Virus record (IMG/VR): IMGVR_UViG_3300033145_001598
Span: 1 to 64,000 of that record
DNA: 64,000 nt
Direction: 5' to 3' (one strand)
Source: a virus
Position numbers and translations under genes: made by a program
The notes under the pieces: model-generated
Databases searched by the model: none
The model's input: only the letters and a program-made list of their open reading frames with translations
What the model was told of the DNA's origin: nothing
In this document: positions 2,661 to 60,041 of the stretch, piece after piece
Position numbering within the stretch: position 1 is the stretch's first letter
Layout of the letters: the number at the start of each line of letters is the position of its first letter

Positions 2661-3340
2661 CAGCATATACAAGGTGTCCCAGAAAGGCTCATCATCTCTG
2701 GAAACAGAAGCCTCCCTCCACTGTTGTTTCTCAAGTAATAAGTAAAATTATCCAGGTCGCATACTCACATCACGCTAAGACGAACGAGGCGCCCCTGTGG
2801 CGGCGTTTTCCTCCCTGGCTGGACCTCCACGTACCTATAGAGTGGAGAGCCCTAGAAGGAGCAGAGAGATACTCTCAGGGCTTAGACCTTTTAGTTAGGC
2901 TATCCTCTTGGTACAACAACTACTATGTGGATTCAGCTGCTCCAGGGCTAGTTAACTTCCCTGTTAGCAAGCCTGTAGGAGAGTATTTTTCTTTCTCTGA
3001 CACTATTCCTATTGTAGAAATAGGTAGTAAAGTCAAGCTATTAGATATTGTTGAAGGAGATTCTAATGTGAGTGGTAGGTCTCTATACAATGATTTTGCT
3101 ATTCAGGCTAGGATCTGGGGTTTCTACATGTTTTCTGATATAATGCCTGATGAATATGTTCAATTGGTTATCCAACCTAAGTCTATTAGACCTGTTTCAA
3201 TTAACATAACAGAGAAGGCCCTTGAAAAAACAGGGAAAATGGTTAATCATATAGTACATAGCATAATGAAAGGTATGTATTATCCTTCATTTTCTGAGCA
3301 GTGTCAAAAATGTCCGTATGCTGCCAGGTGTAGTATCTAA
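2633..3340 (+). CDS. Cas4/RecB-like PD-(D/E)XK family protein with 4Fe-4S cysteines
   Basis: 235 residues. The N-terminal YTRCPRKAHHL supplies one cysteine and the C-terminal EQCQKCPYAARC supplies three. This 1+3 layout is typical of Cas4/AddB iron-sulfur nucleases. The QxxxY-type motif is present as IQARIWGFY. The catalytic D-(D/E)-x-K part is weak: LLDIVEGDS lacks the expected lysine, so catalysis may be lost or altered. In phages such proteins act in recombination or DNA end processing. No CRISPR array or cas1/cas2 is nearby. The start is ATG 2633 behind AGAGG. Confidence 0.65.
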   Translation: MYIIKPQNIAAYTRCPRKAHHLWKQKPPSTVVSQVISKIIQVAYSHHAKTNEAPLWRRFPPWLDLHVPIEWRALEGAERYSQGLDLLVRLSSWYNNYYVDSAAPGLVNFPVSKPVGEYFSFSDTIPIVEIGSKVKLLDIVEGDSNVSGRSLYNDFAIQARIWGFYMFSDIMPDEYVQLVIQPKSIRPVSINITEKALEKTGKMVNHIVHSIMKGMYYPSFSEQCQKCPYAARCSI

Positions 3341-3355
3341 AGGGGGAAATAACAG

Positions 3356-3514
3356 TTGTTAAAAATTAAAGACAAGCATAATCGTACAAAATTTATACTC
3401 AGGGACGAGGACGATGAACCCTTGAGTATTGATGAATTAATTCTTAAGGATGAAAAGGAACAGGAGAAGAAGAATGCCGACAAGAAATCCAAAAGACCAG
3501 CCACTAAGCGTTAG
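3356..3514 (+). CDS. Small charged protein, TTG start
   Basis: A 52-residue frame starting at TTG 3356, nine bases after AGGGGG (3341-3346). It fills an otherwise empty gap and overlaps the start of the next gene by 41 bases. It is rich in Lys, Asp and Glu (KEQEKKNADKKSKR) with no hydrophobic core, so it is probably disordered. No function can be assigned. Confidence 0.5.
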   Translation: MLKIKDKHNRTKFILRDEDDEPLSIDELILKDEKEQEKKNADKKSKRPATKR

Positions 3515-3821
3515 TGGTATTCCACAACGAAGAGACGAGCCCGAAGTAGCTACTTGCAAGAAGTGTGAGAACACATGGTTTGAACAGCTTGTAGTTTTTC
3601 AGTATCCAAAGCATCACAGTGTAGTGCTAGGACAAGAGGTGCCACGTCAATCTCAGATTGGTTTCTATCTAATGAAATGTGCTAAGTGTGGGGAACTTCA
3701 TGAACCTAAGGTTCAGATAGGTCCTCAAGATAGTGCTAGAAAGAAATACGATCAGTTCTGGGACGATATGGAAGCTCCGATACCTGAAAAGGTTCCGGGT
3801 TCTCTTGGTGAAAAAATATAG
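3474..3821 (+). CDS. Zinc-ribbon protein
   Basis: 115 residues from ATG 3474, chosen over the upstream ATG 3450 because AGGAG lies at 3462-3466. ATCKKCENTWFEQL and LMKCAKCGELHEP give a C-x2-C / C-x2-C zinc ribbon with a strand between. The C-terminus is charged. Function is unknown; it could be a nucleic-acid or partner-binding adaptor. Confidence 0.6.
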   Translation: MPTRNPKDQPLSVSGIPQRRDEPEVATCKKCENTWFEQLVVFQYPKHHSVVLGQEVPRQSQIGFYLMKCAKCGELHEPKVQIGPQDSARKKYDQFWDDMEAPIPEKVPGSLGEKI

Positions 3822-4100
3822 ATGAAACTGATAGATAGCAATAGATATTATTTACCAGGAACAAGTGGTAGATGGATTCATATTGCTACTGTTCATCATG
3901 GTCTTAGAGAATACATGTGTTTTGCTGATAGATCTAACAACAAGATGTACATAGAAGAGATTACAGGTGGTTCTCTAGAATTTATAGACGATGATAGTTT
4001 AGCTCAAGGGCTAGCTGATTTTGTAACAGACAGATGTGTACTAGATGTAACTAAGCCTCTTCTATCAGACAACGAGTGGTTACGTAAGAGCAAACAGTGA
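3822..4100 (+). CDS. Unknown small protein
   Basis: 92 residues, not recognised. It begins right after the previous stop and overlaps the next gene's GTG start by four bases (GTGA). Mostly predicted strands and helices without membrane segments or cysteine clusters. Confidence 0.55.
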   Translation: MKLIDSNRYYLPGTSGRWIHIATVHHGLREYMCFADRSNNKMYIEEITGGSLEFIDDDSLAQGLADFVTDRCVLDVTKPLLSDNEWLRKSKQ

Positions 4101-4732
4101 AAGAAAGAAGATTTAGATATAGCTATAGATATAATTCTTCTAAGCTCCATAAGAGAGTAGGCGACACTCTACGTAGTGGTGTTTTCTCAGGTTTCAAGCT
4201 ATTCCAGGAATATCCTGTCAATAAGGTCTTAGATTCTTACCCGTCAGGGCGTCATAAGTTTGACTGGGTTATCCTAGACATTGGTTTAGTTATTGAATGC
4301 CATGGTGAACAACACTACAAACCAGTTAGCTTTGGTGGAAGAGAAGACACTGGAGCAGGACAAAGATTCAAAGAACAAGTAGAGAGAGATAGGATAAAGA
4401 AGGAGGCAGCTGAGGAAGCTGGGTTTACTTACATAGCAATTCCACATTGGGATTACAAAATTATAAATGAAAACTATATCTGGGACCTGTATCAGCAGAA
4501 TAAGAATGTGAAGGTAGTTGAGAAGCCTCAGAAGGCTCCTGACGATCCTTGGAAAGAGAAGCAGAAGATATATGCTAGAGAGTATAGACAGCAGGCTTAT
4601 CAGCGACAGAAGGAATGGATAAAGAAGATGAAGTCCCAGAAGGAGGTCGACGATGAGTCGTCGTCTAGTGGATATTCGAAAAGAAATACCTCGTCACAGC
4701 AAAAGAAAGTGGCGAAAGAGGGACAAAGCTAG
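4097..4732 (+). CDS. VSR/DUF559-like PD-(D/E)XK endonuclease
   Basis: 211 residues from GTG 4097, which overlaps the previous TGA. HKFDWVILDIGLVIECHGEQHY gives the Asp and Glu-x-x of a VSR-like nuclease core; RDRIKKEAAEEAGFTYIAI matches the helix and final strand of that fold. The last 60 residues are a charged, helical tail. Related phage proteins nick or cut DNA in recombination or as free-standing homing enzymes. The specific target cannot be read from sequence. Confidence 0.6.
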   Translation: MKERRFRYSYRYNSSKLHKRVGDTLRSGVFSGFKLFQEYPVNKVLDSYPSGRHKFDWVILDIGLVIECHGEQHYKPVSFGGREDTGAGQRFKEQVERDRIKKEAAEEAGFTYIAIPHWDYKIINENYIWDLYQQNKNVKVVEKPQKAPDDPWKEKQKIYAREYRQQAYQRQKEWIKKMKSQKEVDDESSSSGYSKRNTSSQQKKVAKEGQS

Positions 4733-5315
4733 TAGAATAGTCCTTCATACCACAGCTAGTTCTAACCAGAACCCGTATAAAACGGCACGTTATCATATCA
4801 AACCAGGCAAACAGAATCACATTTCAAAAAGAGGATGTCCAGGAATTTGTTACCATGATTTTATTACACAAGACGGCACAATATATCATTGCAATGATTA
4901 TACAGACGTTACTTGGCACGCTGGTGCATACAATTCTAGATCGGTTGGAGTCACGATGGCATTTAAAGGCCAAGATGGTGGACTACCAGATCCTTTACAA
5001 TGGCGCGCGGCTATAGATCACGTAGTAGTTCTTTGCCTATACTTGAAAGTATTTCCTTACCATGTGATAGGACACAGAGAAGTTCCGTTCATGGTCACTA
5101 TACTAGGCAATGGATCCAAGAGATATAAGAAGACTTGTCCTGGGATGGGTGTTAATATGGATCTGTTTCGTCATACAGTAACCATTTGTTTGCAGAACAG
5201 ACTACAACTAGAAGGCCTATATACTGCAGACATAGATGGTCATTTTGGCAAGAAGTCCAAAAAAGCATTACATGCCTTTAGGATTACAGACAAAAGTGTC
5301 GACTGGAGAGTATAG
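4653..5315 (+). CDS. N-acetylmuramoyl-L-alanine amidase endolysin
   Basis: 220 residues. An Amidase_2 domain covers about residues 27-165: VLHTTAS supplies the first zinc His, WHAGAYNSRSVGV matches the core, and GHREV with KTCPGMG supplies the second His and the Cys ligand, as in T7 lysozyme. A C-terminal LQNRLQLEG...HFGKKSKKALHAF repeat resembles a peptidoglycan-binding domain. It would cut the amide bond between glycan and peptide at lysis. There is no signal peptide, so release would need a holin, which is not identified. The start follows a near-perfect AGAAGGAGGT site inside the upstream gene. Confidence 0.88.
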   Translation: MSRRLVDIRKEIPRHSKRKWRKRDKASRIVLHTTASSNQNPYKTARYHIKPGKQNHISKRGCPGICYHDFITQDGTIYHCNDYTDVTWHAGAYNSRSVGVTMAFKGQDGGLPDPLQWRAAIDHVVVLCLYLKVFPYHVIGHREVPFMVTILGNGSKRYKKTCPGMGVNMDLFRHTVTICLQNRLQLEGLYTADIDGHFGKKSKKALHAFRITDKSVDWRV

Positions 5316-5914
5316 TGTCATTTTCACCTAATCTGAAAAGATGTCCAAAATGTAGAAAAGAAAAAGAAACAGAAGAGTTTCATAAAGACAAACATCGTAA
5401 GGATGGTTTATATGTTTATTGTAAAAGTTGTTGTACTGATCAACAAAGACAACACCGTGCTAAATATGCAAAATCTTTAGCTATCATGGAACAAGCTAGA
5501 AATCAGACTCCAGAGCGCAAAGAATCTCGTAAAAAATATAAAAAGTCAGAAAAATTTAAGAAACAGAATAGAAAATATGAAGCTCAGAGGCGACGGGAAA
5601 ATATTGGATTTAAGATAAGTGCTAATCTGCGAGGGAGACTCTATCATGCAATTAAAGATGGAGCTAAAGGGGGATCTGCAGTAAATGATCTAGGATGTAG
5701 CGTAGATGAGCTGAAGAAATATTTAGAAGCCAAGTTTAAGCCTGGGATGAGTTGGGATAATTGGGCTAGAAAAGGATGGCATATTGATCATATTGTCCCA
5801 TTAAATTATTTTGACTTATCTGATCCCAAACAAGTTGTTAGGGCCTGTCATTATACCAATCTTCAACCATTATGGTATTACGAAAATGGGTCTAAAGGAG
5901 CTAAGTGTGTATAG
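5315..5914 (+). CDS. HNH endonuclease with N-terminal zinc ribbon
   Basis: 199 residues from GTG 5315 (TAGTG overlap). RCPKCRKEK and YCKSCCTDQQ form a zinc ribbon; a Lys/Arg-rich helix follows. The catalytic region is GWHIDHIVPLNYF ... HYTNLQPLWYYEN, a common phage HNH pattern in which H-I-D-H and the later Asn form the metal site. It is probably a free-standing homing nuclease placed between the lysin and a second nuclease. Confidence 0.75.
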   Translation: MSFSPNLKRCPKCRKEKETEEFHKDKHRKDGLYVYCKSCCTDQQRQHRAKYAKSLAIMEQARNQTPERKESRKKYKKSEKFKKQNRKYEAQRRRENIGFKISANLRGRLYHAIKDGAKGGSAVNDLGCSVDELKKYLEAKFKPGMSWDNWARKGWHIDHIVPLNYFDLSDPKQVVRACHYTNLQPLWYYENGSKGAKCV

Positions 5915-6512
5915 AAAGACCATTTGGTCGCCTGTCGAAGTAGAATATCTTAAGAAGCATCGTCATGACGCAGTCAATCAGTTAACTATAGCTTTAGCTA
6001 AGAGTCAGCATGCTGTCCGTAAGAGAATAAAGCAGGGCTTTGATGGCAAGGTTTTATCTACCAAGAAGCCTAACCAGAGATATAGCAAGATAGGAAAAAG
6101 GAAAGACTGTAACAATATGTTCTTTAGATCTGGCTGGGAAGCTAATGTTTACAGGCTTTTACGTACAGACAAGGATATCAAGCTTATAGAGTACGAGCCG
6201 ACCACCTTCTCCTTCACTTCTTTTGGGATATTAAAAGGCACAGTTAGCTATACACCAGACTTTAAAATTACTTACCAGGACGGTAGCTATGAGTGGATAG
6301 AGGTCAAGGGTGGGTGGATGAAAGCTGCTGACAAGACTAAGTTACGGCGTTTTAAGAAGTTTTTTCCAGATGAGTATGATAAGCTAGTAGCTGTGACACC
6401 TGGTCCTACCTCAAAAACAACCAAATTCTTTGAGGACTTCGATGTCCCGATAAAATGGCACTACCCCGAACTGAACAAGACCTATCGAAAGACTATTCCC
6501 AACTGGGAGTAG
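5907..6512 (+). CDS. PD-(D/E)XK nuclease (DUF1064/TnsA-like)
   Basis: 201 residues from GTG 5907, preceded by AAAGGAG at 5894-5900; the frame is open further upstream, but that stretch only shadows the HNH gene. FRSGWEANVYRLL, IEYEPTTFSF, YTPDFKITYQDG and EWIEVKGGW give the E, PD and ExK signature of a PD-(D/E)XK nuclease similar to DUF1064 phage proteins. The N-terminal third looks like a small helical DNA-binding region. Holliday junction or recombination nuclease roles are plausible. Confidence 0.65.
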   Translation: MYRKTIWSPVEVEYLKKHRHDAVNQLTIALAKSQHAVRKRIKQGFDGKVLSTKKPNQRYSKIGKRKDCNNMFFRSGWEANVYRLLRTDKDIKLIEYEPTTFSFTSFGILKGTVSYTPDFKITYQDGSYEWIEVKGGWMKAADKTKLRRFKKFFPDEYDKLVAVTPGPTSKTTKFFEDFDVPIKWHYPELNKTYRKTIPNWE

Positions 6513-6514
6513 AG

Positions 6515-7105
6515 GTGTGCGTTCTCATAGATTACTTCCTGCCCTTATGTAAGGGCATCACCCCAAATTATAACCATTGGTTCTTCCGCTTATTCATCCC
6601 TGAACGTGCTAGTGGTGAGGTTGCCTACGGTACTCCTACTGATACTAGAGGGGTCCAGGAAGTTCTACAACGTGCTTGGTGGGTTGAAGAAGAAGACATC
6701 ATTCAACAAGTAATGATGGCCATATATGACGGCGGGCTTAATCCTAAAAACTATATCAAAAGTCCTGTAGCTAGATATCTTAGGGATTGGTTGCTGAAGG
6801 AAGGTAGGGTTTTAAGTAGGACATATGCTGAGAAGAACTGTTGGTTTGATGCTAAATACTCTTACCAAGAGCATAAAGAGCCCAATGTTTCTATGGTATT
6901 TAATAATAATTTTCTAGCTGAATGTAGCTTGACACTATTTGAGAAGTATCTATTATACTTAATGAACGTTCTCCACATGTCTAAAGCAGAATCAAGTAGA
7001 CAGTTGGGAGAATATAAGATGCAAATAAGTCGTTTTTTTATTAAACTATCTGAAAAACTACAAGGAGTAACTGATGCCAGCAAGGAACCAACAAGACTTT
7101 GTTAA
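6515..7105 (+). CDS. Possible sigma-like or HTH regulatory protein
   Basis: The frame is open from ATG 6455, but GTG 6515, just after the previous stop and behind GGGAG, is the better start (196 residues). The C-terminal segment TLFEKYLLYLMNVLHMSKAE followed by SSRQLGEYKMQISRFFIKL resembles sigma-70 region 4, with a helix-turn-helix. The middle QRAWWVEEEDIIQQVMMAIY could correspond to region 2. Phages often use such proteins for late transcription. The match is weak and the call tentative. Confidence 0.35.
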   Translation: MCVLIDYFLPLCKGITPNYNHWFFRLFIPERASGEVAYGTPTDTRGVQEVLQRAWWVEEEDIIQQVMMAIYDGGLNPKNYIKSPVARYLRDWLLKEGRVLSRTYAEKNCWFDAKYSYQEHKEPNVSMVFNNNFLAECSLTLFEKYLLYLMNVLHMSKAESSRQLGEYKMQISRFFIKLSEKLQGVTDASKEPTRLC

Positions 7106-7307
7106 CAATTACAAAGCTGACCAAGGGGATACCCCCAGAAGTATTACCGATAGGCTACAATGGCCAGGGATTGACCATCTTCATATGAAAAGCAGAGAAG
7201 AAATAGCCGAGACCCTAGTTAATGTACTAAAGTCTCGAGCTAATATTACTAATGTAAATTGGGAATTAGGGAAGAGTTATATAGAGATTACTTACCATTC
7301 TGGTTAG
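7074..7307 (+). CDS. Unknown small protein, last plus-strand gene
   Basis: 77 residues, not recognised. It overlaps the previous gene by 32 bases behind AAGGAG, and its stop shares bases with the stop of the convergent gene on the other strand (7304-7307). No motifs are seen. Confidence 0.5.
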   Translation: MPARNQQDFVNNYKADQGDTPRSITDRLQWPGIDHLHMKSREEIAETLVNVLKSRANITNVNWELGKSYIEITYHSG

Positions 7308-7933
7308 TCTTCTTCAGTAGCTGAAGTCATCATCCGAGGCTCTTCTTTCTCTTTTTCCTCACCTGGAGCTGTAGGTTTCATTATTTTCTCTACCTCTGGG
7401 GCAATCTTATCCTTATAGGCTGCTAGCAGTTCGTCATTAGTGACTATCTCTTTTTCATCTAAGACTACCAGTAGTGAAGACAACCTAGCTGAGGTCATAA
7501 GAACATTCTGTTCTCCACCACCTACAGCTTGCATTACTTTTACTAAGTCATACATGATTGATGTGATGAGAGAGTTTAGACAATCAACTGCAGTGGCTAG
7601 TCCTTCTAGTGCCTTACGAGTCTGGGCACCATTCAATTTTCCACCCTTAGAAGCCCTCTCTAGGACCTGTGAAACCTTCTTTAGAGCTTCCCGCCTGGCA
7701 CCACTCGTAACATCAAATGCTTCTACAGGGTCCTGTGGAGGTGCATCTTCTAATTCATCTATTACTTCTTCTACTTCATCTGGTTGATTAGATTGACGCT
7801 CTTCAAAGTTAGCAATGAGCTCATCAGTATTGTCTATTTTCTCTGATTCTGATGCATCTGTCACATTGACAATTTCCTTCGTTATTCGGGTTGTACTGTT
7901 AGTTTCCTGTTTCGGGTCTGTTGTTGTGGACAT
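7304..7933 (-). CDS. Unknown acidic protein
   Basis: 209 residues. The first 70 are Asp/Glu/Thr/Ser rich and probably disordered; residues 75-180 form a helical domain with ALKKVSQVLERASKGGKL and LNSLITSIMYDLVKVMQAV. The tail is acidic again. The family is not recognised. It is the last gene of the long minus-strand block and ends tail to tail with the plus-strand block. Confidence 0.6.
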   Translation of the reverse strand: MSTTTDPKQETNSTTRITKEIVNVTDASESEKIDNTDELIANFEERQSNQPDEVEEVIDELEDAPPQDPVEAFDVTSGARREALKKVSQVLERASKGGKLNGAQTRKALEGLATAVDCLNSLITSIMYDLVKVMQAVGGGEQNVLMTSARLSSLLVVLDEKEIVTNDELLAAYKDKIAPEVEKIMKPTAPGEEKEKEEPRMMTSATEED

Positions 7934-8267
7934 ATTGTTGGTTCTCCTGTATGTATTTTTGGATTTCTTCCTGGATTATTCGATTTAATATTTGTCTTTC
8001 GGGTGTACCTTCTATATTTGCAGTAGCAAGTGTTTCTAACGCTGCGTCTTTTAAGATACGATATTTATATATTTCAAAAAAGTTATCTAGAGTATCTATG
8101 TAGAGAAAGCTATTGTCTACTTTAAACTTTCTTTTTATTTCACTTTCTTCTATGTCTCCAGATACTATTCCTAATAGGCGGGGGGAATTGTTATCTATAT
8201 ATACTGCTACTAAATCTTCTGGACCTGTTGGCTTCCAGTCTAGTCTAAACTCTCTCTGTCTAGCCAT
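7899..8267 (-). CDS. Unknown protein
   Basis: 122 residues, not recognised. The N-terminus has two or three strands (LVAVYIDNNSPRLLGIV), the C-terminus a long charged helix ending in QENQQYVHNN. It overlaps the downstream gene by 35 bases. Confidence 0.5.
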   Translation of the reverse strand: MARQREFRLDWKPTGPEDLVAVYIDNNSPRLLGIVSGDIEESEIKRKFKVDNSFLYIDTLDNFFEIYKYRILKDAALETLATANIEGTPERQILNRIIQEEIQKYIQENQQYVHNNRPETGN

Positions 8268-8278
8268 TCTTGCCCTTT

Positions 8279-8533
8279 CTAACGAAGTTCTGCTGGTTCA
8301 ATGTCTGTGATATCAAACTCATGGATAGGCTCGTTTTCTCCATAGTCTAGTTCGTCCATAGCTCTACAGATACCTTCTTGTAGTATCTCTGTTGTTGTTG
8401 AGTAGGCATCATTAGCCGATTCTGCTTCGACTATAAGTCGGACTGTTACCTCAAATCTGTCTCTTCCAGGTTGTGATAGAAACCTTTCTCTATCCTCGGG
8501 GTTGGTTCTAGTGAAATCGTTTCTATCCATCAA
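8279..8533 (-). CDS. Unknown small protein
   Basis: 84 residues. DRFEVTVRLIVEAESANDAYSTTTEILQEG has a strand-helix form seen in many small phage proteins. The C-terminus reads IHEFDITDIEPAELR. It lies directly downstream of two paralogue-like small genes. Function is unknown. Confidence 0.5.
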   Translation of the reverse strand: MMDRNDFTRTNPEDRERFLSQPGRDRFEVTVRLIVEAESANDAYSTTTEILQEGICRAMDELDYGENEPIHEFDITDIEPAELR

Positions 8534-8758
8534 TTACTCTCCAAAATTAAATTCTAGTTGTTCTAGTACATTCCTATACGTATACGGCCATTGTTTTTTC
8601 CCATTAATATAGCTGAATTCCATATGGAATATCTGTGACGTAGGTGCAGTCATTGGTTGTGCCTGAACCTCACCTATCCTATATAAAGGAGCTGTTTCCC
8701 TAAACACAGGAATTTGAAATGTTTCACTCATTGTCCATTCTGAATTATTATCTGGCAT
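8534..8758 (-). CDS. Small protein with C-terminal QLEFNF peptide (copy 2)
   Basis: 74 residues. Its end, YRNVLEQLEFNFGE, closely matches the end of the neighbouring upstream gene (YRKVLVQLEFNFDAR), so the two may be tandem paralogues. The QLEFxF hexamer also ends two small proteins at 55.7-56.3 kb. It resembles the hexapeptide form of a bacterial beta-clamp binding motif; that reading is an inference. Confidence 0.5.
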   Translation of the reverse strand: MPDNNSEWTMSETFQIPVFRETAPLYRIGEVQAQPMTAPTSQIFHMEFSYINGKKQWPYTYRNVLEQLEFNFGE

Positions 8759-22677: not shown

Positions 22678-25488
22678 CTATGTATTATTGGGAATAATAC
22701 TACAGGAGTCTGAGGAACAAAATTTTTCGATGACTTCATTAGTAGCCTCTGATAGATCTAATGGTTTTAGTTTGGTTATAGCTTTCTTGTATTCCTTCTT
22801 GGTTATCTCTTGGTAGGGAGCATGTTCGTAGCCATGGTCCTTAAGAGGTAGGAAACTTATTCCTTTTAGTCTGTGTTCATATAGTTCTAGGGCGTATGGA
22901 ATCTGCGCCGCTTCTTCTTTGTTGAATGTAATGGTACAGCTTACTTGATTATCTGCCCACCAGTATTGCATTTGAGCGGCGTTTTCCAACTGTTCCCACA
23001 TGCTTACGTCACTTTTACTTCTATCAAAATGTTCTTCCTTAATAGGGAAGTACACTGCTGTTGTATTAGGTTCTTTCTTGGGGTCTATCTCTACGCACTG
23101 ATATCCTGCAGCTCTTAGTTTTTCTATGAGAGGTGAATCACTAGCGAACCTAATAACTCGGTGATAATATTCGCTATGAGGGTTATGAATACCAGGAGTA
23201 GCCCCTGGCAACAGAGAAATAGTCCCCGAGGGCTTGAGACTAGTAATCTTAATACTCTCCGGAATACAAAGCCATCTACTATAGATGCCATCTAACCTCT
23301 TTAAATAATCGTACCCTTGGTCACACCAGCTGAAGAGTTCCCGCCGTCCATGTATCTTAAATGCCTGCGCTATACCTGACATGCTGGTGCCAATACGCCT
23401 ATTCCTTAACATAACAGCATTGGTTCTAGCATCATGAGTATGTACTAGAGTTACTGTCTTAGCATAGAGATAGGCAAACTTTAATGTTCTTTGAAACTCT
23501 TCATAGCCACTATGTTTAGCAGGAAAAGTTTCAACCAAATTACATAGTTCGAAGGATTCTAAAGTTTGTTCCAAACATGGATTTCCTCCTGCTGCAGCTA
23601 CATCTTTATAGTCTGCTGGATCTTTAGTTCTAGAATATTTTCTAGCATTTTCTAACCAAAAATATCCAGGTTCTCCATTTTTTGCTGTTCTTTCAGCACA
23701 TTCTTTATAGTTCATTCCTAGTATAGCAAAAATTGAATTATTACTGGCCCATCTGTGATGATCAAGAGCTTTTTTATTAACTTTAGGGTCTTTAAGCTCA
23801 AGGAAATCTATGTCATCAGGCTCCCCAAACATAATCTCTGCTGTCCTACGGAGGTTACCAGCTACTACACATCTACCTATTAGATTAAATATATCTACTA
23901 TAGCTGTAGAGGTAACAGCTTCTCCCACTAGTTTGTCTAGGAGTTTTTCAAGACTTTCTACTAGTTCTATTAATGGTTCCGGACCACTATTATGTGAAAC
24001 AAATCCATTGGCTACAAAATTATGGAATGGTGCCTCCATTTGCAAATCGAATACTCTTTCATATCCTTGCTTCTGTATGCTCACTATATTGTCAAAGTTT
24101 AGGTATCTATGCTCGTATGGTGAGCCTAAATGATCTTCTTTTGCATGAGTTTTATTATGACAACGGGCACATAAAGTTTGAAGATTATAATGATTGTTAT
24201 TTAAAGCATTTCTGTCACGATGATGGACATAAATATAATGTTCTCTTGTTGAGAACTCATCATTACCACAAAGTTCACAGGTTGGGTGTAATTTAAGATA
24301 GTCCCTATTTTCTTTTCTTTGCCTTGCTGTTATTGCAAGAGCATCATCTCTTATTTGATACACATCAAAGCATGGCTTACATCTTATTGCTCGTCTACTT
24401 ATTGAACATCCACAGTCTATACAAGTGCCTGTTTTTCTTTCTTTAGCTCCATTAATTGCAATGTCTTCTCCTATAGAAAAGTTTTCTAAATACTTATATC
24501 TTCCTTCTGAGTCTAGGAATCTATGATTAGATGTTGCTTTGATTGAATAACCTAGTCTTGTTGTGATTTCAAATACTTCTGCGGTTCCATTATCATAAAT
24601 ATCAATGACCTTGTTTCTAAAGAAGCTACCAGTTTTTTCATCTAATGAACGGATTAAAATATTTCTTGATTCCCAGTTCCAGGTTGTATTTTGTTTCGTG
24701 TCATATAGTTCTTCTATAGTAATCTGATTTTCATTCTTACCTTTATGATGATCATCCAGATAGAGTAGCGTTTCTCCTGTTAAACAAGCCGTACCACCAA
24801 ACCCACGGATAGGGGTCCCTGAGGGCCTGACTTGACTGTAGTCTATGTTTTCTGGAAAGGTATCTCTTCCTACATAGGAGTCGAGAACACGTCTTATAAG
24901 CTCAACCCAGCCTTCTCGTGAGTCTTCTACAACATGCTTGCCACCTATACGTGGTTCACGGATGTTAATAGTCCCCGCACCTCTAGTGTCTCCTCCGACA
25001 CCTACGCCAAGCATAGACATGTCCATAAGAAAGCAAAATGGATCTGAGAACGAAGTCTTAAGGTCTATCGTGGAGCACATTGCACAATTATTCAACGAGG
25101 CTGCTTTTTCAAGCAACCTATCCGTTCCCATCATCCACATACCACGACCTGGAGGCAGGAACTTAAACTCCCACATCAATCGATACATTTCTTGAGCAGA
25201 TCTTTGTGCTTTTCTAGGATTCCAGGGCAGGTGAAGGTCTTTACAGTGAGCTTCTTGGAGGTGATAACAACCTTCTATTACTCGAACTAAAGTTAACCAG
25301 TATTCCTCACTGGTCTTGACTTCATGTTCTTCAGCAAGCTTCTGACACCTCTTAGGGATATTCTCCAGAGCTCTACTGTAAGTTCTTTTGTAGGTGATAT
25401 ATCCGATTTGGCCCCATTCTGGTTGTTTACCAGCAAATTTGGCAACAAATCTATCATCTAGTCTGAAGCGGACGACAGACATATCCAT
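22678..25488 (-). CDS. nrdJ: Adenosylcobalamin-dependent (class II) ribonucleoside-triphosphate reductase, with intein
   Basis: 936 residues; the spliced protein is about 670. The family is the monomeric RTPR type. NNCAMCSTID supplies one redox Cys, NPCLEQTLESFELCNLVE holds the Cys radical site, the catalytic Glu and the second redox Cys, and the tail FCSSDSC is the C-terminal Cys pair that re-reduces the active site. IGTSMSGIAQAF and SLKPSGTISLLPGATPGIHN match other conserved strings. It reduces NTPs to dNTPs with B12 and needs no oxygen or second subunit. An intein occupies residues 235-500 at GGTA/SGPEP. Confidence 0.9.
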   Translation of the reverse strand: MDMSVVRFRLDDRFVAKFAGKQPEWGQIGYITYKRTYSRALENIPKRCQKLAEEHEVKTSEEYWLTLVRVIEGCYHLQEAHCKDLHLPWNPRKAQRSAQEMYRLMWEFKFLPPGRGMWMMGTDRLLEKAASLNNCAMCSTIDLKTSFSDPFCFLMDMSMLGVGVGGDTRGAGTINIREPRIGGKHVVEDSREGWVELIRRVLDSYVGRDTFPENIDYSQVRPSGTPIRGFGGTACLTGETLLYLDDHHKGKNENQITIEELYDTKQNTTWNWESRNILIRSLDEKTGSFFRNKVIDIYDNGTAEVFEITTRLGYSIKATSNHRFLDSEGRYKYLENFSIGEDIAINGAKERKTGTCIDCGCSISRRAIRCKPCFDVYQIRDDALAITARQRKENRDYLKLHPTCELCGNDEFSTREHYIYVHHRDRNALNNNHYNLQTLCARCHNKTHAKEDHLGSPYEHRYLNFDNIVSIQKQGYERVFDLQMEAPFHNFVANGFVSHNSGPEPLIELVESLEKLLDKLVGEAVTSTAIVDIFNLIGRCVVAGNLRRTAEIMFGEPDDIDFLELKDPKVNKKALDHHRWASNNSIFAILGMNYKECAERTAKNGEPGYFWLENARKYSRTKDPADYKDVAAAGGNPCLEQTLESFELCNLVETFPAKHSGYEEFQRTLKFAYLYAKTVTLVHTHDARTNAVMLRNRRIGTSMSGIAQAFKIHGRRELFSWCDQGYDYLKRLDGIYSRWLCIPESIKITSLKPSGTISLLPGATPGIHNPHSEYYHRVIRFASDSPLIEKLRAAGYQCVEIDPKKEPNTTAVYFPIKEEHFDRSKSDVSMWEQLENAAQMQYWWADNQVSCTITFNKEEAAQIPYALELYEHRLKGISFLPLKDHGYEHAPYQEITKKEYKKAITKLKPLDLSEATNEVIEKFCSSDSCSIIPNNT
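23989..24786 (-). other. HNH-containing intein in the ribonucleotide reductase
   Basis: 266 residues starting CLTGETLLYL (Cys1, block A) and ending FVANGFVSHN before Ser+1. KATSNHRFL is the block B region. The endonuclease is not LAGLIDADG but zinc-rich HNH: TCIDCGCSISRRAIRCKPC, then CELCGN ... YVHHRDRNALNNNHYNL and CARCHNKTH. Removing it restores GFGGTASGPEPL, a conserved string of RTPR. Border residues are intact. Confidence 0.88.
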
Positions 25489-53910: not shown

Positions 53911-54135
53911 CTACTCCGTTGGGTGTAAATGTCCATGACCCAGAAGTATACCAACTACATCCTCGGCCACCCTATTCTCTCCATTATTCTTCTTAAGCCA
54001 GACAAGTAAGGATTCTTTCTCTAGATCAGCTATGTCACAAGAGATACACTCTCCGTTTTCAACGAAGGCTCTGACATAAATACCTGTTTCTCCATATTGT
54101 TTATATCTTCCTTGATCAACATATAAGAATTTCAT
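53911..54135 (-). CDS. Unknown small protein
   Basis: 74 residues, beta-rich, not recognised. It shares one base with the RtcB stop and precedes the small membrane protein by three bases; probably one operon. Confidence 0.5.
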   Translation of the reverse strand: MKFLYVDQGRYKQYGETGIYVRAFVENGECISCDIADLEKESLLVWLKKNNGENRVAEDVVGILLGHGHLHPTE

Positions 54136-55463
54136 TATATTGCCTTGATGTTGAGAACAGGTTTTACTCTGTCAATTATCCTTGCTGTAGGATCGAGCGC
54201 TCTCTCAATAATATGACTTTCTTTGTAAGCATCAGGAGCTTCATCAAGAGTACTTTTCACTACTGAAGTAGAATAAATGTCTTTCATTTCTTGTTTAAAT
54301 TTGTCAAGAGATAGTTCTTTTTTAGCTTGTGTTCTAGACATTACTCTACCAGCTCCATGAGGCGCTGAGTAGTTCCATTCACCATTGCTCCTGCCTTCAC
54401 AAATAAGTAAGCCGTCTCTCATGTTAAATGGAATAATTATTTTTTCACCAGTATAACTGGCTACTGCTCCCTTACGGATGATAAGATCTCCAAAGTCTAT
54501 AAGATTATGAACTGTTTCTATTTGTTCAAGAGTTTCTAAAGTATCCTTAAGGCCAAGGCATTTAATAATACGCCGGCCCATTTCTTTCCTATTTAAGTGA
54601 GCATACTCTTGAGCCATTGCCATATCAAACAAGTATCCAAAGGCATCGTCTCCTGTAAGGTATGCAAGCTCCTTAATATCTCCAGCTCCATCTAATCCTA
54701 ATTGTGTTCTAAGATTCTGGATTTTTCCTTCCCATAGTTTCCACTCTGGCTCTTCTTTCTTGAGTTTATCTACAAGGTCAGTAAAGACTCCTTCTCGAAC
54801 GTCCTTAATTCTCAGAAGTGCTCTTTCCTGCCAGTAATTACACACTTTGAGACCAAAGTTTCTAGATCCTGAGTGTATGGTAAGCCAATAATCACCAGTA
54901 TTCTCTGATTTGCCTATTTCTATGAAATGGTTACCTCCACCAAGAGTACCAATACTATTGCAAGCTCTACTAAAATCTGCACCTGTATATCTACAGATTT
55001 CCTGGAACCTATCATAGTCAAAAACAGGTAATTCTGAATTCACTCCTAGCCTATCCGAGGCCTTCTGTACGAGGTTTTTAGCTGCAGATGATGCTAGGAC
55101 CCAATCGTGTCTAGAAACGTTGTATCTGGCTCTCTTGTGAGCTTTAAAGCCCATAGGTACAGTTGACCTGATGTTTTGGTCTATATCCCTGAGAGACATG
55201 GACGACAAGAGACTCTTGCCTAGGTTAATGGCTAGCATTCCACAGCCAATATCCACACCAATAACATTAGGAATGATTTTGTCGGTAAGAGGCATTGTAA
55301 AACCAATTACACTACCTTTGCCAGCATGAGTATCTGGCATAATAGCCACTGGCTTAGTAAATGCAGGATGATTAATCATTTTGGTAATCTGGCTGACACA
55401 TTCTGGTTCTACATCGTCAATCCAGATCTTAGCTGTAGTATATTTGCCTTCACATTCAAACAT
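54135..55463 (-). CDS. rtcB: RtcB RNA ligase
   Basis: 442 residues. GVDIGCGM, LGGGNHFIE, HSGSRN and SAPHGAGR are the metal and GMP-binding motifs; the guanylated His lies in SAPHGAGR. RtcB joins RNA 2',3'-cyclic phosphate or 3'-phosphate ends to 5'-OH ends with GTP and Mn2+. In a phage it can reseal tRNAs cut by host anticodon nucleases. It overlaps the small genes on both sides. Confidence 0.92.
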   Translation of the reverse strand: MFECEGKYTTAKIWIDDVEPECVSQITKMINHPAFTKPVAIMPDTHAGKGSVIGFTMPLTDKIIPNVIGVDIGCGMLAINLGKSLLSSMSLRDIDQNIRSTVPMGFKAHKRARYNVSRHDWVLASSAAKNLVQKASDRLGVNSELPVFDYDRFQEICRYTGADFSRACNSIGTLGGGNHFIEIGKSENTGDYWLTIHSGSRNFGLKVCNYWQERALLRIKDVREGVFTDLVDKLKKEEPEWKLWEGKIQNLRTQLGLDGAGDIKELAYLTGDDAFGYLFDMAMAQEYAHLNRKEMGRRIIKCLGLKDTLETLEQIETVHNLIDFGDLIIRKGAVASYTGEKIIIPFNMRDGLLICEGRSNGEWNYSAPHGAGRVMSRTQAKKELSLDKFKQEMKDIYSTSVVKSTLDEAPDAYKESHIIERALDPTARIIDRVKPVLNIKAI

Positions 55464-55685: not shown

Positions 55686-56132
55686 TTAAAAACGAAATTC
55701 TACTTGACCTGTTGCTGTGATAATGTTTTCTAGATCATCTAAAGAGTTGAAATGTTTAAACTCTGGTTGACCGTCTTCATCACCATTATCTTCGTCTACA
55801 ATATCGTCCCAGGATACATTCCAGTCTATATTGTAGAATCCATGGTTATTACACGTTCTAACACATATACCTCTGCTATCTTTCCAGATATATGTCTCAT
55901 AATTACATGTCCAGTCAACATATAAAGGCTTATTAAAACTACGATGAGTTTCTAACCATACTAAAGCTTTACTATTTCTATTAATAGCAAAGTCTTCACC
56001 ATATTCTAATCTTTCTGTTTCTATTACCTCTAGCATTTTTTTTGCTACTTGAGCAGTAGTAGTATAATCGTTATCTCTAACTATAAATGCAGAAGAACTA
56101 CTGTTGCTTACAAATCCTGTTCTAATCTTCAA
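55686..56132 (-). CDS. GFVSNSSSS-type protein, copy 3
   Basis: 148 residues starting MKIRTGFVSNSSSSAFIV. The same N-terminus opens the next two upstream genes. The remainder has many aromatic residues, two Cys (ICVRTCNN) and an acidic C-terminus that ends QVEFRF. Similar N-termini occur in many hypothetical bacterial and phage proteins of unknown role. Because the split-intein radical SAM gene lies directly upstream, the Ser cluster is a candidate modification or recognition site. Confidence 0.6.
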   Translation of the reverse strand: MKIRTGFVSNSSSSAFIVRDNDYTTTAQVAKKMLEVIETERLEYGEDFAINRNSKALVWLETHRSFNKPLYVDWTCNYETYIWKDSRGICVRTCNNHGFYNIDWNVSWDDIVDEDNGDEDGQPEFKHFNSLDDLENIITATGQVEFRF

Positions 56133-56286
56133 ACCTAAACTCCAATTGCTTCTTTAGATATACTATTACATCGTCTTCTTCTTCGTCTGGAAATTCAGCA
56201 CTCAAATTTTCTTCTAAATAATCATCATTTGCATACATATAGTCTGAACTACTTGAGTTTGCTACAAATCCTAGTCGAAGTTTCAT
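56122..56286 (-). CDS. GFVANSSSS-type peptide, copy 2
   Basis: 54 residues starting MKLRLGFVANSSSSDYMY at ATG 56286, which overlaps the stop of copy 1 (TAATG). The body is short, acidic and ends LKKQLEFRFED. It resembles a precursor peptide in size. The C-terminal QLEFxF matches the pair of genes at 8.5-8.95 kb. Confidence 0.6.
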   Translation of the reverse strand: MKLRLGFVANSSSSDYMYANDDYLEENLSAEFPDEEEDDVIVYLKKQLEFRFED

Positions 56287-56570
56287 TACCAGTGTCCATG
56301 AATCCAATTTATTTTATTGTCTGGTATACCTATTTTTTGTAGGTACTCTTCCATGTCAAAATTATTCATAGAAGTGTTACCACTGATGATTTCTGCTCTT
56401 TCATCTACAATGATCTCCCAAGCATCAGTATCTCCATATTCAATATCTATTTGTTTACCTAGTTCTGAATGACAGACTATTGTGAGGATTTGTTTAGCAG
56501 ATAAATCTGAGAGTTTTATCGTGAATGAAGAGGAGCTGGAATTTGATACGAAGCCAATTCTAAATTTCAT
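56286..56570 (-). CDS. GFVSNSSSS-type protein, copy 1
   Basis: 94 residues starting MKFRIGFVSNSSSSSFTIKL. It is the first gene after the radical SAM C-terminal part, nine bases away. The remainder is a mixed fold with Asp/Glu-rich helices and the end KINWIHGHW; it lacks the QLEFxF tail of copies 2 and 3. Confidence 0.6.
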   Translation of the reverse strand: MKFRIGFVSNSSSSSFTIKLSDLSAKQILTIVCHSELGKQIDIEYGDTDAWEIIVDERAEIISGNTSMNNFDMEEYLQKIGIPDNKINWIHGHW

Positions 56571-56579
56571 TAATAATAT

Positions 56580-57527
56580 TCATGTCATCTCTAGGTCAAA
56601 GACCGGACATTTTCTTTCGTTTGCCATTAATTTATTTCTAAAAGATTCAGCTTGGGGACTTTCCCATACATCTCTCAAAAAATTTTCTGTATTTTGTATT
56701 TTAATAGGGTTATGTCCTGGCTCTTCATCACAAAAACTACAAGGAAACACTTCTCCATTTACATTTATGTAGAGACTGAAGCAGTATGACTCACAAGGCT
56801 CACAGATCATTTCTAAGAGCTTTTTATCTGGATTATCCTGTATAACCTTAAGGAATGAAGGCGCGCTACAGCTATCGAATCCAATTGGTACATCCATTGT
56901 CATTGCTCTAGTAATGAGATTTTTATACATATCTAGATTTCTTAACTGAGTTGTTCTATTTCTACTTCCTTTTGGTTTCATTAATAGAAAGACAATTGCA
57001 TTTAGTCTTTCTAATTCTTCTTCAATTCTTACCTGGTTGATTAAATTAATACATTCATTGTATGTTTCCATACATAATACTTTGTGAATGTTAACTTGTT
57101 TTAATCCAGCCCGCCCGAGTCTATCCACACTAGAAAAGCAGTCACTATCGTTATAGTGACTAACTGCCACTGCACCGCATATAGTGCTAAGCCTAGAGAC
57201 ATGTTCATCGGAAATATCCTTTCCGTTCACTGTAATGTTAGGAACTACTTCATTATGTGGATTATCTCTGCAATACTCCATTATCTTCCATAGATCAGGA
57301 TTTGCGTCTATGGATCCTATGCCGAATGCCACCTGAGTGAGATTTTTAGGAATTCTCTGGAAAATGTCCTTAAAAGTGTTAAGTGACATATTTTTACCTT
57401 TTGAGGTATTCGATTTGTAACAATTATGTACTAATAAGCTATTAGCAAAATAGCTATGGTCTGGTGTAGTTCCAATATTATATACTTGTCCAGAGTAGTC
57501 TTCTCTTGTAATATTCCTTATCTTCAT
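56580..57527 (-). CDS. Radical SAM/SPASM-like protein, C-terminal part preceded by C-intein
   Basis: 315 residues. Residues 1-35 are a C-intein; the remaining 280 begin with Cys+1 in CYKSNTSKG and form the body of a radical SAM protein. That Cys completes the CX3CX2C motif begun on the other chain. CEPCESYCFSLYINVNGEVF, then PCSFCDEE and KCPVFD give the cysteines of a SPASM-like auxiliary-cluster region. The start overlaps the HNH stop (TAATG) behind AGGAG. After trans-splicing the enzyme is about 342 residues. Neighbouring NSSSS peptides may be its substrates. Confidence 0.85.
   Translation of the reverse strand: MKIRNITREDYSGQVYNIGTTPDHSYFANSLLVHNCYKSNTSKGKNMSLNTFKDIFQRIPKNLTQVAFGIGSIDANPDLWKIMEYCRDNPHNEVVPNITVNGKDISDEHVSRLSTICGAVAVSHYNDSDCFSSVDRLGRAGLKQVNIHKVLCMETYNECINLINQVRIEEELERLNAIVFLLMKPKGSRNRTTQLRNLDMYKNLITRAMTMDVPIGFDSCSAPSFLKVIQDNPDKKLLEMICEPCESYCFSLYINVNGEVFPCSFCDEEPGHNPIKIQNTENFLRDVWESPQAESFRNKLMANERKCPVFDLEMT
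57423..57527 (-). other. Split intein, C-terminal fragment
   Basis: 35 residues: MKIRNITREDYSGQVYNIG followed by TTPDHSYFANSLLVHN and then Cys+1. Length and motif order (block F with DHSYFAN, block G with VHN/C) equal known C-inteins of trans-splicing systems. Its partner is at 58459-58743. Confidence 0.85.
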
Positions 57528-58411
57528 TATCTTCTCCTGTTGTCTACTCGTTTATGACATGGCATACAATATGTAATTCCTCGAATCCTTCCTAAAAGGT
57601 GAAGTTTTTCTATTTTTAGAGATACTTCTTCAAATTCCTCGAGACTTAAGTCTTCTAGAGATTTGTTCCATAATTCTTTCTTTAAAATATCTCTGAAACT
57701 ATCAATATGATGGACTTCTAGCTGAGTACTTGTTTTATTACATCTACAGCAAGTGAACTGATCTCTTTCGAGGATTGGAAGTATCCATATTTTATATAAT
57801 CGTGATCTTATTGTCTGTGCTCGGTTACGGTTACCTTTCCATAGACTATGTTTATTTCCTCTTTTATATTGATAAGATCTCTTTGCTCGAGTTTCTTTTG
57901 CTTTTTGTTTGACCTTTGGATCATACATTGGATTATTGACCCTCATTTGTCTTTTTTGTTTCTCTTTCCTTTTATTGTTTTCCTCTTCTGAATAGATTTT
58001 CTTCCGTCCATATTTTTGAATGGACGGATTGTTATCTGAGGACATCCGTTTTTTAGTAGAGATTAAGCTTTTTTCCTTACATTTATTACACATAGCTCTA
58101 CTATATGTTTTTGTTTTATGAAAGGTTTTTACTATGTATGAATTAGTAATATTAATTTTACAACGAGGGCAATATGTTCTCTTAATCTTAGTAGACTTTA
58201 TTCGTCTTTTAGATCGGCATTTATCACATTGTTTTTGTTTATACTTCCCTTGGAAGGATTCTCTGCAAATCTCGCAAATTTTATTGAAAGATCTACTATG
58301 ATAATTTAGCCTATCCTTTTCTCGAGTAAATTGTTTTTTACACTTACTACTACAATATTTGGAATCTTTACGTTTAGCTATAAACCTTCGTTTACATATG
58401 TAACATATCAT
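57527..58411 (-). CDS. Free-standing HNH endonuclease lying between split-intein halves
   Basis: 294 residues. Four Cys pairs in the first 115 residues (CYICKRRF, KYCSSKCKK, ICEICRESF, YCPRCKIN) look like zinc fingers; NNPMYDPKVKQKAKETRAKR resembles a NUMOD3 module; QFTCCRCNKTSTQLEVHHID and ITYCMPCHKRVDN form an HNH core. This order is typical of intron/intein-associated homing nucleases. Its place between the two halves reproduces the fractured-gene arrangement reported from environmental phages. Confidence 0.8.
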   Translation of the reverse strand: MICYICKRRFIAKRKDSKYCSSKCKKQFTREKDRLNYHSRSFNKICEICRESFQGKYKQKQCDKCRSKRRIKSTKIKRTYCPRCKINITNSYIVKTFHKTKTYSRAMCNKCKEKSLISTKKRMSSDNNPSIQKYGRKKIYSEEENNKRKEKQKRQMRVNNPMYDPKVKQKAKETRAKRSYQYKRGNKHSLWKGNRNRAQTIRSRLYKIWILPILERDQFTCCRCNKTSTQLEVHHIDSFRDILKKELWNKSLEDLSLEEFEEVSLKIEKLHLLGRIRGITYCMPCHKRVDNRRR

Positions 58412-58455
58412 ACAATTATGATATAGAATTTTTGCTTATATGTAAACCAAAATGT

Positions 58456-58929
58456 TTAAAATCCTATGATTTCATCGTCTTCGGTGAGCTCATCTGCTCG
58501 AATCCATCCTTTTGATGTATATAATTTATGATTTGGTGTTAATCTAAGTGTCTCATTATCTGTTACAATCTTAATTAATTCACCTTCATATTCTCTGACA
58601 AAGGTCTGGTCAACTATTTGTTGAGTGCGAGACACTTTTCCATTTTTATGTATCTTTGCTCCATACACAGATTCACCTACCTTAATTTCTTGAATTGATT
58701 TTTCTCCATCAGGAGTCAGAACCTTAGTGTCAGGGGGTACACAGAAACTACATCCTCCATCGCAGATTGTAGATATCTCAATATCCAGTATCTCTGGTCC
58801 GAACGGACTGTAAGTCGGATCGTCATCAAAGGTGTCACCCCAACGAGCGAAAAAGCCTGTGTCTTTGTTGAAGTCATAACTATACCCATTACTTCTTACC
58901 TTTTTCACTGGCCTTTTTTCTGTTTTCAT
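58456..58929 (-). CDS. Radical SAM protein, N-terminal part followed by N-intein
   Basis: 157 residues. Residues 1-62 are the N-extein, ending ISTICDGGCSF, the first two cysteines of a radical SAM CX3CX2C motif. Residues 63-157 are an N-intein that begins with Cys1 (CVPPDTKVLTPDGEK). The stop follows ELTEDDEIIGF, a normal N-intein end. This chain has no function by itself; it must be joined to the product at 56580-57527. Confidence 0.85.
   Translation of the reverse strand: MKTEKRPVKKVRSNGYSYDFNKDTGFFARWGDTFDDDPTYSPFGPEILDIEISTICDGGCSFCVPPDTKVLTPDGEKSIQEIKVGESVYGAKIHKNGKVSRTQQIVDQTFVREYEGELIKIVTDNETLRLTPNHKLYTSKGWIRADELTEDDEIIGF
58459..58743 (-). other. Split intein, N-terminal fragment
   Basis: 95 residues from CVPPDTKVLTPDGEKSIQEI to DDEIIGF. 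Block A is CVPPDTKVLT, block B is RLTPNHKLYT with the conserved T-x-x-H. The length is near the 100 residues of known N-inteins. The gene stops right after it, showing a natural split. Confidence 0.85.
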
Positions 58930-59167: not shown

Positions 59168-59386
59168 TTATTCCTTATTATTCTTCCTTCCTCCTTTTGT
59201 CCTATGTTTAAGATAACTCTTTCTAAGTGATTCATAGTCAGGGTCTCTATTCCATAGAGCTGGGTGAATACCAATATGTCCAGGGCACTGCACCATGTGC
59301 TCCCGTTCTTCTAGGACACCAGTTTCTTTATTAATTTCTTTGTACTTAATTTTAGCTGGATATTTACAAATATTACATTGACGCAT
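59168..59386 (-). CDS. Small zinc-finger-like protein
   Basis: 72 residues. QCNICKYPAKIKY and MVQCPGHIGIHPALW give C-x2-C and C-x2-H ligands. The C-terminus is basic. Its start overlaps the RNase HII stop. Function unknown. Confidence 0.5.
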   Translation of the reverse strand: MRQCNICKYPAKIKYKEINKETGVLEEREHMVQCPGHIGIHPALWNRDPDYESLRKSYLKHRTKGGRKNNKE

Positions 59387-60041
59387 CTCTAATTCTCATT
59401 TCTTCTTCTATTTTTATCCACCACTTCCAAGATTGTCTAATCTCTTGTGGTAATTCACCTGTGCGCCTCAGGTATTCTCTTATCCAAGTTTTAGTTCCAT
59501 CATTTGGGTATCCAGCACCATTCCAGAATGCTTCTCCCATGATATCTATGGTTTCTTTATCTCTGAGGAACTTAGCTATAATACTAGCTGCTCCTACAGT
59601 GATATATTTGCTATCTGCTTTATCTGTAGCAATTACTGGAATATCGTTTATTTCTGTTCCTAAAGACCCGAAAATATTTTCGCCATCTAGTACGAGAACA
59701 TCTGGTTTAATTCTTTCTATAAGTTGTTGCATGACCCTTAGAGCAGTTTCTCTTTCAAGGTCATTTAAGTTTTTCTCATCTGAGCTCACGTACTCATCAA
59801 CTCGTGATGCTGGTACCATCTCAAACGACCACCATGTTTTTAGGATAGGTATCATTTGATGTAGTTTGTCTCTTCTAGAGGCATACCTGCTCCGCTGGTC
59901 TCCTACAAAGGCTTTAGAGTCTCTGACTCCAATTCTTCGTAGTTCAAATCCTTTATCTGAATCTGCTACTACAGCAGCTAGGACTATAGGTCCTATTACG
60001 CTACCTCGACCAGCTTCATCTACTCCTAGAATTTTAGTCAT
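59373..60041 (-). CDS. rnhB: Ribonuclease HII
   Basis: 222 residues. VDEAGRGSVIGP holds the Asp-Glu of the active site, RDSKAF the substrate-binding motif, VLDGENIFG the next Asp and DKADSKYITVGAASIIAK the final conserved block. It removes RNA from RNA-DNA hybrids such as Okazaki primers. The protein is full length. Confidence 0.9.
   Translation of the reverse strand: MTKILGVDEAGRGSVIGPIVLAAVVADSDKGFELRRIGVRDSKAFVGDQRSRYASRRDKLHQMIPILKTWWSFEMVPASRVDEYVSSDEKNLNDLERETALRVMQQLIERIKPDVLVLDGENIFGSLGTEINDIPVIATDKADSKYITVGAASIIAKFLRDKETIDIMGEAFWNGAGYPNDGTKTWIREYLRRTGELPQEIRQSWKWWIKIEEEMRIRDASM

Follow-up and report, generated by a model that had tools for sequence, protein, structure and literature searches.

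How can a phage enzyme be made from a gene that is broken within the motif for its iron-sulphur cluster? This question is raised by three open reading frames (ORFs) of the 64,000-nt stretch analyzed here, referred to below as the window (IMG/VR virus record IMGVR_UViG_3300033145_001598, positions 1 to 64,000). An earlier note, made from the sequence alone, had read these ORFs as the N-part of a radical S-adenosylmethionine (SAM) gene, a gene for an HNH nuclease, and the C-part of the radical SAM gene. Reading of the ORFs placed all three at the coordinates given there, on the minus strand, and we consider it highly probable that they represent a fractured radical SAM gene whose products are joined by split-intein trans-splicing, with the HNH gene as mobility partner.

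The interrupted gene and its intein

Each of the three ORFs lies in its own reading frame. The N-part stop and the HNH start are separated by a 44-nt gap that contains stops, and the stop of HNH and the start of the C-part share nucleotides in the sequence TAATG. The N-extein ends in ...ICDGGCSF, which holds cluster cysteines one and two, and the first intein residue is C63 of the N-part. The C-part reads ...ANSLLVHN and then CYKSN, the third cluster Cys being the +1 splicing residue. C+1 doubles as third ligand of the cluster, so that the joined sequence completes the [4Fe-4S]/SAM site: on direct reading, CxxxCxxC is incomplete in each part alone and is restored when the exteins are joined in silico, giving 342 aa, the same length as the earlier note had arrived at.

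Profile searches point to an intein on both sides of the break. NCBIfam intein_Nterm (TIGR01445) exceeded its cut-off on the N-part (44 versus 24.5 bits, residues 63-138), and Pfam PT-HINT/intein matches started directly after the first two cysteines. In the C-part, Pfam detected an intein C-terminal block followed by SPASM. Moreover, Pfam Intein_splicing (PF14890) scored 48.6 bits on the joined halves, against a cut-off of 35.8. The N-intein half has C1, TxxH, and its own stop, and the C-intein half its own start, the terminal HN, and C+1. The HINT fold was assessed on a structure model of one contiguous relative only, L108 (3300005915_000298; 131-aa intein at the window site), for which the N-halves served as the modelling alignment. 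This model (mean predicted local distance difference test score, pLDDT, of 80, poor over the last 12 residues only) matched HINT domains, with gp41-1 (6qaz, 30% identity) in second place and NrdJ-1 in ninth. Together, these features support a naturally split intein, of the class-1 type, between Cys 2 and Cys 3 of CxxxCxxC in the window.

The PHROG 7293 profile aligned with the N-part and, at positions 78-351, with the C-part, and is contiguous over the break. The earlier note had proposed looking for an uninterrupted radical SAM gene in phage relatives, and such genes are present: a tblastn search with the joined extein returned 182 phage records, 172 of which covered 80% or more of the query at a single locus, and 80 loci in IMG/VR. 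None of 69 reading frames, extracted from the phage and IMG/VR matches plus genome contigs, was interrupted, and 54 of them have CYKSN at the third Cys. SPASM scored over its cut-off in the C-part, and the CxxxCxxC and SPASM cysteines are invariant alignment columns. For L092, an uninterrupted relative, a structure model (mean pLDDT 95.6) gave SuiB, CteB, SkfB, and anSME as best Foldseek matches, all of them peptide- or protein-modifying SPASM enzymes. The joined exteins are identified by sequence as a radical SAM/SPASM enzyme of PHROG 7293.

The 294-aa protein encoded between the two parts is a predicted free-standing HNH homing endonuclease. It has Cys-rich N-terminal fingers, an NNPM/YKRG linker, and a C-terminal HNH domain (VHHID...CMPCH), and it matched PHROG 1271 (7e-07). 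A close search of IMG/VR returned no relative of this protein, and no solved structure matched it; besides weak partial matches, a profile search returned only the HNH proteins of two phages with an intein at the same site, to which it is homologous (32% for L106 and 34% for L109).

We infer splicing, cleavage by the HNH protein, and homing, in the following steps. The N-part and C-part would be translated separately, probably off one transcript, and the intein halves would associate after translation. The protein halves would then very probably be rejoined by trans-splicing at the Cys that completes the iron-sulphur site: an acyl shift at C1, transfer to C+1, and Asn cyclisation would release the 342-aa enzyme, whose [4Fe-4S]/SAM site would be complete only after splicing. 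The HNH protein would cut the DNA of a co-infecting phage at the intein-free codons of this conserved motif, and the entire cassette would then be copied into the cut genome. The restored enzyme may modify a conserved N-terminal peptide (MKxRxGFVSNSSSSSF) of adjoining phage proteins. Since the splice joint is a metal-cluster ligand, enzyme activity would provide an all-or-none readout of splicing.

Inteins at the same site in other phages

Relatives were sought in IMG/VR with the codons of HN/CYKSN and then with C-part alignments. We found five further inteins at exactly the window site in other phages (L095, L104, L106, L108, and L109). L106 (IMGVR_UViG_3300024259_002316) and L109 (3300043411_003041) have a window-like layout, with an N-part, an HNH gene, and a C-part that overlaps the HNH end. 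In L104 (3300031992_000278), the N-intein and an HNH/AP2 nuclease form one continuous reading frame and the C-part alone is separate, with an 11-nt overlap in another frame, while in L095 (3300031603_000004) intact halves enclose only an AP2 relic. The same Cys is the point of division in L125 (3300012662_000012), which belongs to another radical SAM family (PHROG 16999) and has its HNH gene in several broken pieces, in several frames, between intact halves. The nuclease is decayed in L095 and L125 and the intein halves are intact, so the halves were kept after nuclease loss. The window and all same-site relatives keep C1, TxxH, and the terminal Asn, and C+1 is conserved too; the penultimate His is replaced by Ser in L125 (SN for HN). 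The same break in other, unrelated phages shows that this is a genuine mobile element, of a kind already known. The earlier claim that a split intein interrupts a radical SAM gene is thus supported by motifs, profile scores, and uninterrupted relatives, and the same-site relatives with the three-gene layout are decisive.

In a tree of 75 exteins, the six intein-bearing exteins of the main family are scattered, which requires six changes, all forced by well-supported branches; no bootstrap tree united the six as one group. Between L125 and the other same-site members, the intein is 29-44% identical and the extein 18-23%. The scattered distribution agrees with a mobile element that has been gained and lost.

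Ten further candidates (L093, L094, and L096-L103) were chance matches to the HNCYKSN codons with no open frame, and in L111-L113 only C-intein blocks matched, in other genes. In L108, the region 2714-5798 comprises the contiguous intein and, 20 to 30 residues downstream of the intein site, a second nuclease-linked break, which holds a gene for a 392-aa protein like endonuclease VII/HNH and has intein-like ends that are truncated. In L110 (3172-5939), a split intein fractures a UvsW-like helicase, and the gene between the halves encodes an endonuclease that is not of the HNH type (PHROG 15427).

Table 1. Features of the locus, in window coordinates
Feature	Position	Strand	Remarks
N-part ORF	58929-58456	minus	157 aa
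HNH ORF	58411-57527	minus	294 aa
C-part ORF	57527-56580	minus	315 aa
N-extein	58744..58929	minus	62 aa; opens radical SAM domain; PHROG 7293 positions 21-82
N-intein	58459..58743	minus	95 aa; C1 (CVPPDTKVLTPDG); TPNH in block B; last residues DDEIIGF; stop 58456-58458
C-intein	57423..57527	minus	35 aa; MKIRNITREDYSGQVYNIGTTPDHSYFANSLLVHN; last residues HN, then C+1
C-extein	56583..57422	minus	280 aa; starts CYKSN; remaining radical SAM domain and SPASM; stop 56580-56582
Predicted RNA hairpin over HNH start codon	58390..58447	minus	z -2.3
Shine-Dalgarno AGGAG of C-part	57534..57538	minus	within HNH 3' end, 6 nt ahead of ATG
Neighbour gene starting MKFRIGFVSNSSSSSF	56286..56570	minus	candidate substrate
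Neighbour gene starting MKLRLGFVANSSSSDY	56122..56286	minus	candidate substrate
Neighbour gene starting (TTG)KIRTGFVSNSSSSAF	55686..56132	minus	candidate substrate; PHROG 7397 on residues 1-34

Alternative explanations and known systems

Several observations weigh against a trans-spliced enzyme with an active homing partner. Either intein half alone scores under the PF14890 cut-off, tblastn against 50,697 phage records found no relative of the HNH protein, and no clear Shine-Dalgarno sequence lies ahead of the HNH start. In addition, the scatter on the tree could also reflect old inteins with many losses, not recent homing.

Trans-splicing could be combined with a regulatory role of the split, in which translation of the HNH gene, through TAATG and the hairpin, sets the amount of C-part and enzyme; we regard this addition as rather unlikely. 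The earlier note had raised TAATG coupling as a possible control of trans-splicing through translation of the HNH gene. In phage T4, hairpins over the start codon restrain homing nucleases, and hairpins over the HNH start are predicted both in the window and in L106 (z -2.5). The overlap between the nuclease stop and the C-part start also recurs in L104, L106, L109, and the L110 helicase. However, such an overlap is an ordinary arrangement in compact phage genomes, no significant hairpin was found at the HNH start of L109, and L095 stays split without an intact homing endonuclease. Moreover, the C-part has its own Shine-Dalgarno sequence, with similar sites in L095, L104, L106, and L125 and none in L109, and can therefore start independently.

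A second alternative is a gene in pieces of the T4 type (nrdA split by mobE), in which the halves assemble unspliced and what is left of the intein is inactive. There are precedents for this (Friedrich et al. 2007, as cited in PMC10448857), but we consider this explanation very improbable here. C1, TxxH, HN, and C+1 are retained in the window and its split relatives (with SN in L125), and the intein halves are intact even where the nuclease has decayed. The break also falls within the three-Cys cluster motif, so that an unspliced intein would occupy the active site.

Least probable of all is that errors of sequencing or assembly disrupted the frame of a single, uninterrupted intein with an HNH domain. 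In the same phage, ribonucleotide reductase and AAA+ ATPase ORFs do contain cis-inteins that enclose HNH domains, and the L104 nuclease is fused to the N-intein, but this explanation requires two breaks (three frames and a 44-nt gap with stops). In five unrelated contigs, the C-intein opens with its own ATG and with MKI as conserved first residues, mostly preceded by a Shine-Dalgarno sequence, and the three-gene layout recurs in L106 and L109. An assembly accident or frameshift artefact was rejected because the same break is found in independent contigs.

Fractured genes with split inteins and an intervening homing endonuclease have been described (Dassa et al. 2009, NAR 37:2560, as presented in passages of PMC10448857 and PMC6892783). 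Like the window, these genes are of phage or metagenome origin and have an N-intein gene, a nuclease gene, and a C-intein gene in a row. The window differs in its radical SAM host gene and in its nuclease, an HNH protein with Cys-rich fingers; the title of the 2009 paper reportedly names a new nuclease family, other than HNH. An HNH gene between split-intein halves is also found in PolB of Pseudomonas phage MIJ3 (orf154, between orf153 and orf155; PMC6892783), but there the host is DNA polymerase B, the residue at the splice site is Ser (VHNS), and the passages on MIJ3 in that paper describe no series of same-site relatives. UvsW of Salmonella phage S16 (gp114/gp114.1/gp115, HQ331142) has an N-intein 34% similar to that of the window and a small gene that lies between the helicase parts and overlaps both; its host, a helicase, and its middle gene are different. 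The closest split intein by fold of the contiguous relative L108 is gp41-1, and the closest solved intein by sequence to that of the window is NrdJ-1 (8ubs); both reside in other host proteins, and identity is about 30% or lower.

NCBIfam lists radical SAM proteins with contiguous inteins as NF038136 (Rv2578c) and NF045703 (Tes, tetraether lipid synthase); unlike that of the window, these inteins are cis-inteins of cellular proteins. The N-part falls under both family cut-offs (29 versus 700 bits and 19.5 versus 1700 bits, respectively). Its match to NF038136 (56-144 versus 69-156) spans CxxxCxxC into the intein, which suggests that the two inteins share their insertion site. The statement of the earlier note that no radical SAM enzyme of such a build was known therefore holds for the split, fractured form and has to be narrowed for inteins in this enzyme class, since contiguous ones were already catalogued. 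Neither a split or fractured radical SAM gene nor several architectures at one intein site were found described in the open-access papers searched. The type of fractured gene is itself known; what is new is its occurrence in the radical SAM host class, which extends fractured genes to these enzymes. A single insertion site displays a contiguous intein, a nuclease fused to the N half, a free-standing nuclease, and a decayed nuclease with the halves kept. With such a series, ideas on how split inteins arose can be tested at one locus, and new splicing candidates become available.

Neighbouring genes with a common N-terminus

The three genes directly downstream of the C-part share a GFV[SA]NSSSS N-terminus and are the sole such genes in the 75.6-kb record. 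Among the relatives, 64 of 80 loci have genes of the MKIRxGFVSNSSSSSFxI type within ±5 kb (220 genes, all on the strand of the enzyme and 219 with the motif at the N-terminus); 19 control loci and base-shuffled sequence gave zero. Conservation is almost complete over the first 18 residues (MK-R-GFVSNSSSSSF), but the gene bodies form 72 clusters between which BLASTP at 1e-3 detects no similarity. When whole records were searched, 24 of 32 strict motif matches lay no more than 10 kb from the enzyme, with about 4 expected. In L092, the neighbour at 6037 encodes a MKIRKGFVSNSSSSSF protein. Motif genes are absent near the enzyme in Straboviridae relatives, the whole record of GAP161 has zero strict matches, and the GFVSNSSSS motif was not found in the open-access papers searched. 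The flanks of PHROG 16999 enzymes hold four MK..R..VFETNSSSxHSL genes each in L125 (413-6916) and in L136, which is Lak-B1 (6929-8701).

The motif-bearing neighbours are candidate substrates of the radical SAM enzyme, or else leader-tagged proteins; we give the substrate relation roughly an even chance. We are likewise evenly divided on the wider proposal that PHROG 7293 enzymes modify the MKIRxGFVSNSSSSSFxI peptide and PHROG 16999 enzymes a sister peptide, MKxQxRxxVFETNSSSTHSL, with the intein parasitising the site that both families share. If this holds, the trans-spliced enzyme would act as maturase in a protein-modification system of phages that has not been described. The enzyme family itself hints at what may be a new type of peptide modification in phages.

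Other genes close to the locus encode an RtcB-like RNA ligase (window 54135-55463, minus strand) and RNase HII (59373-60041, minus strand). Farther away on the same strand are a 936-aa ribonucleotide-reductase-like ORF (25488-22678) with a contiguous intein that has an HNH-like domain (profile match 23989-24735), and a 1311-aa AAA+ ATPase-like ORF (32491-28556) with two contiguous inteins, one of them in the Walker A region.
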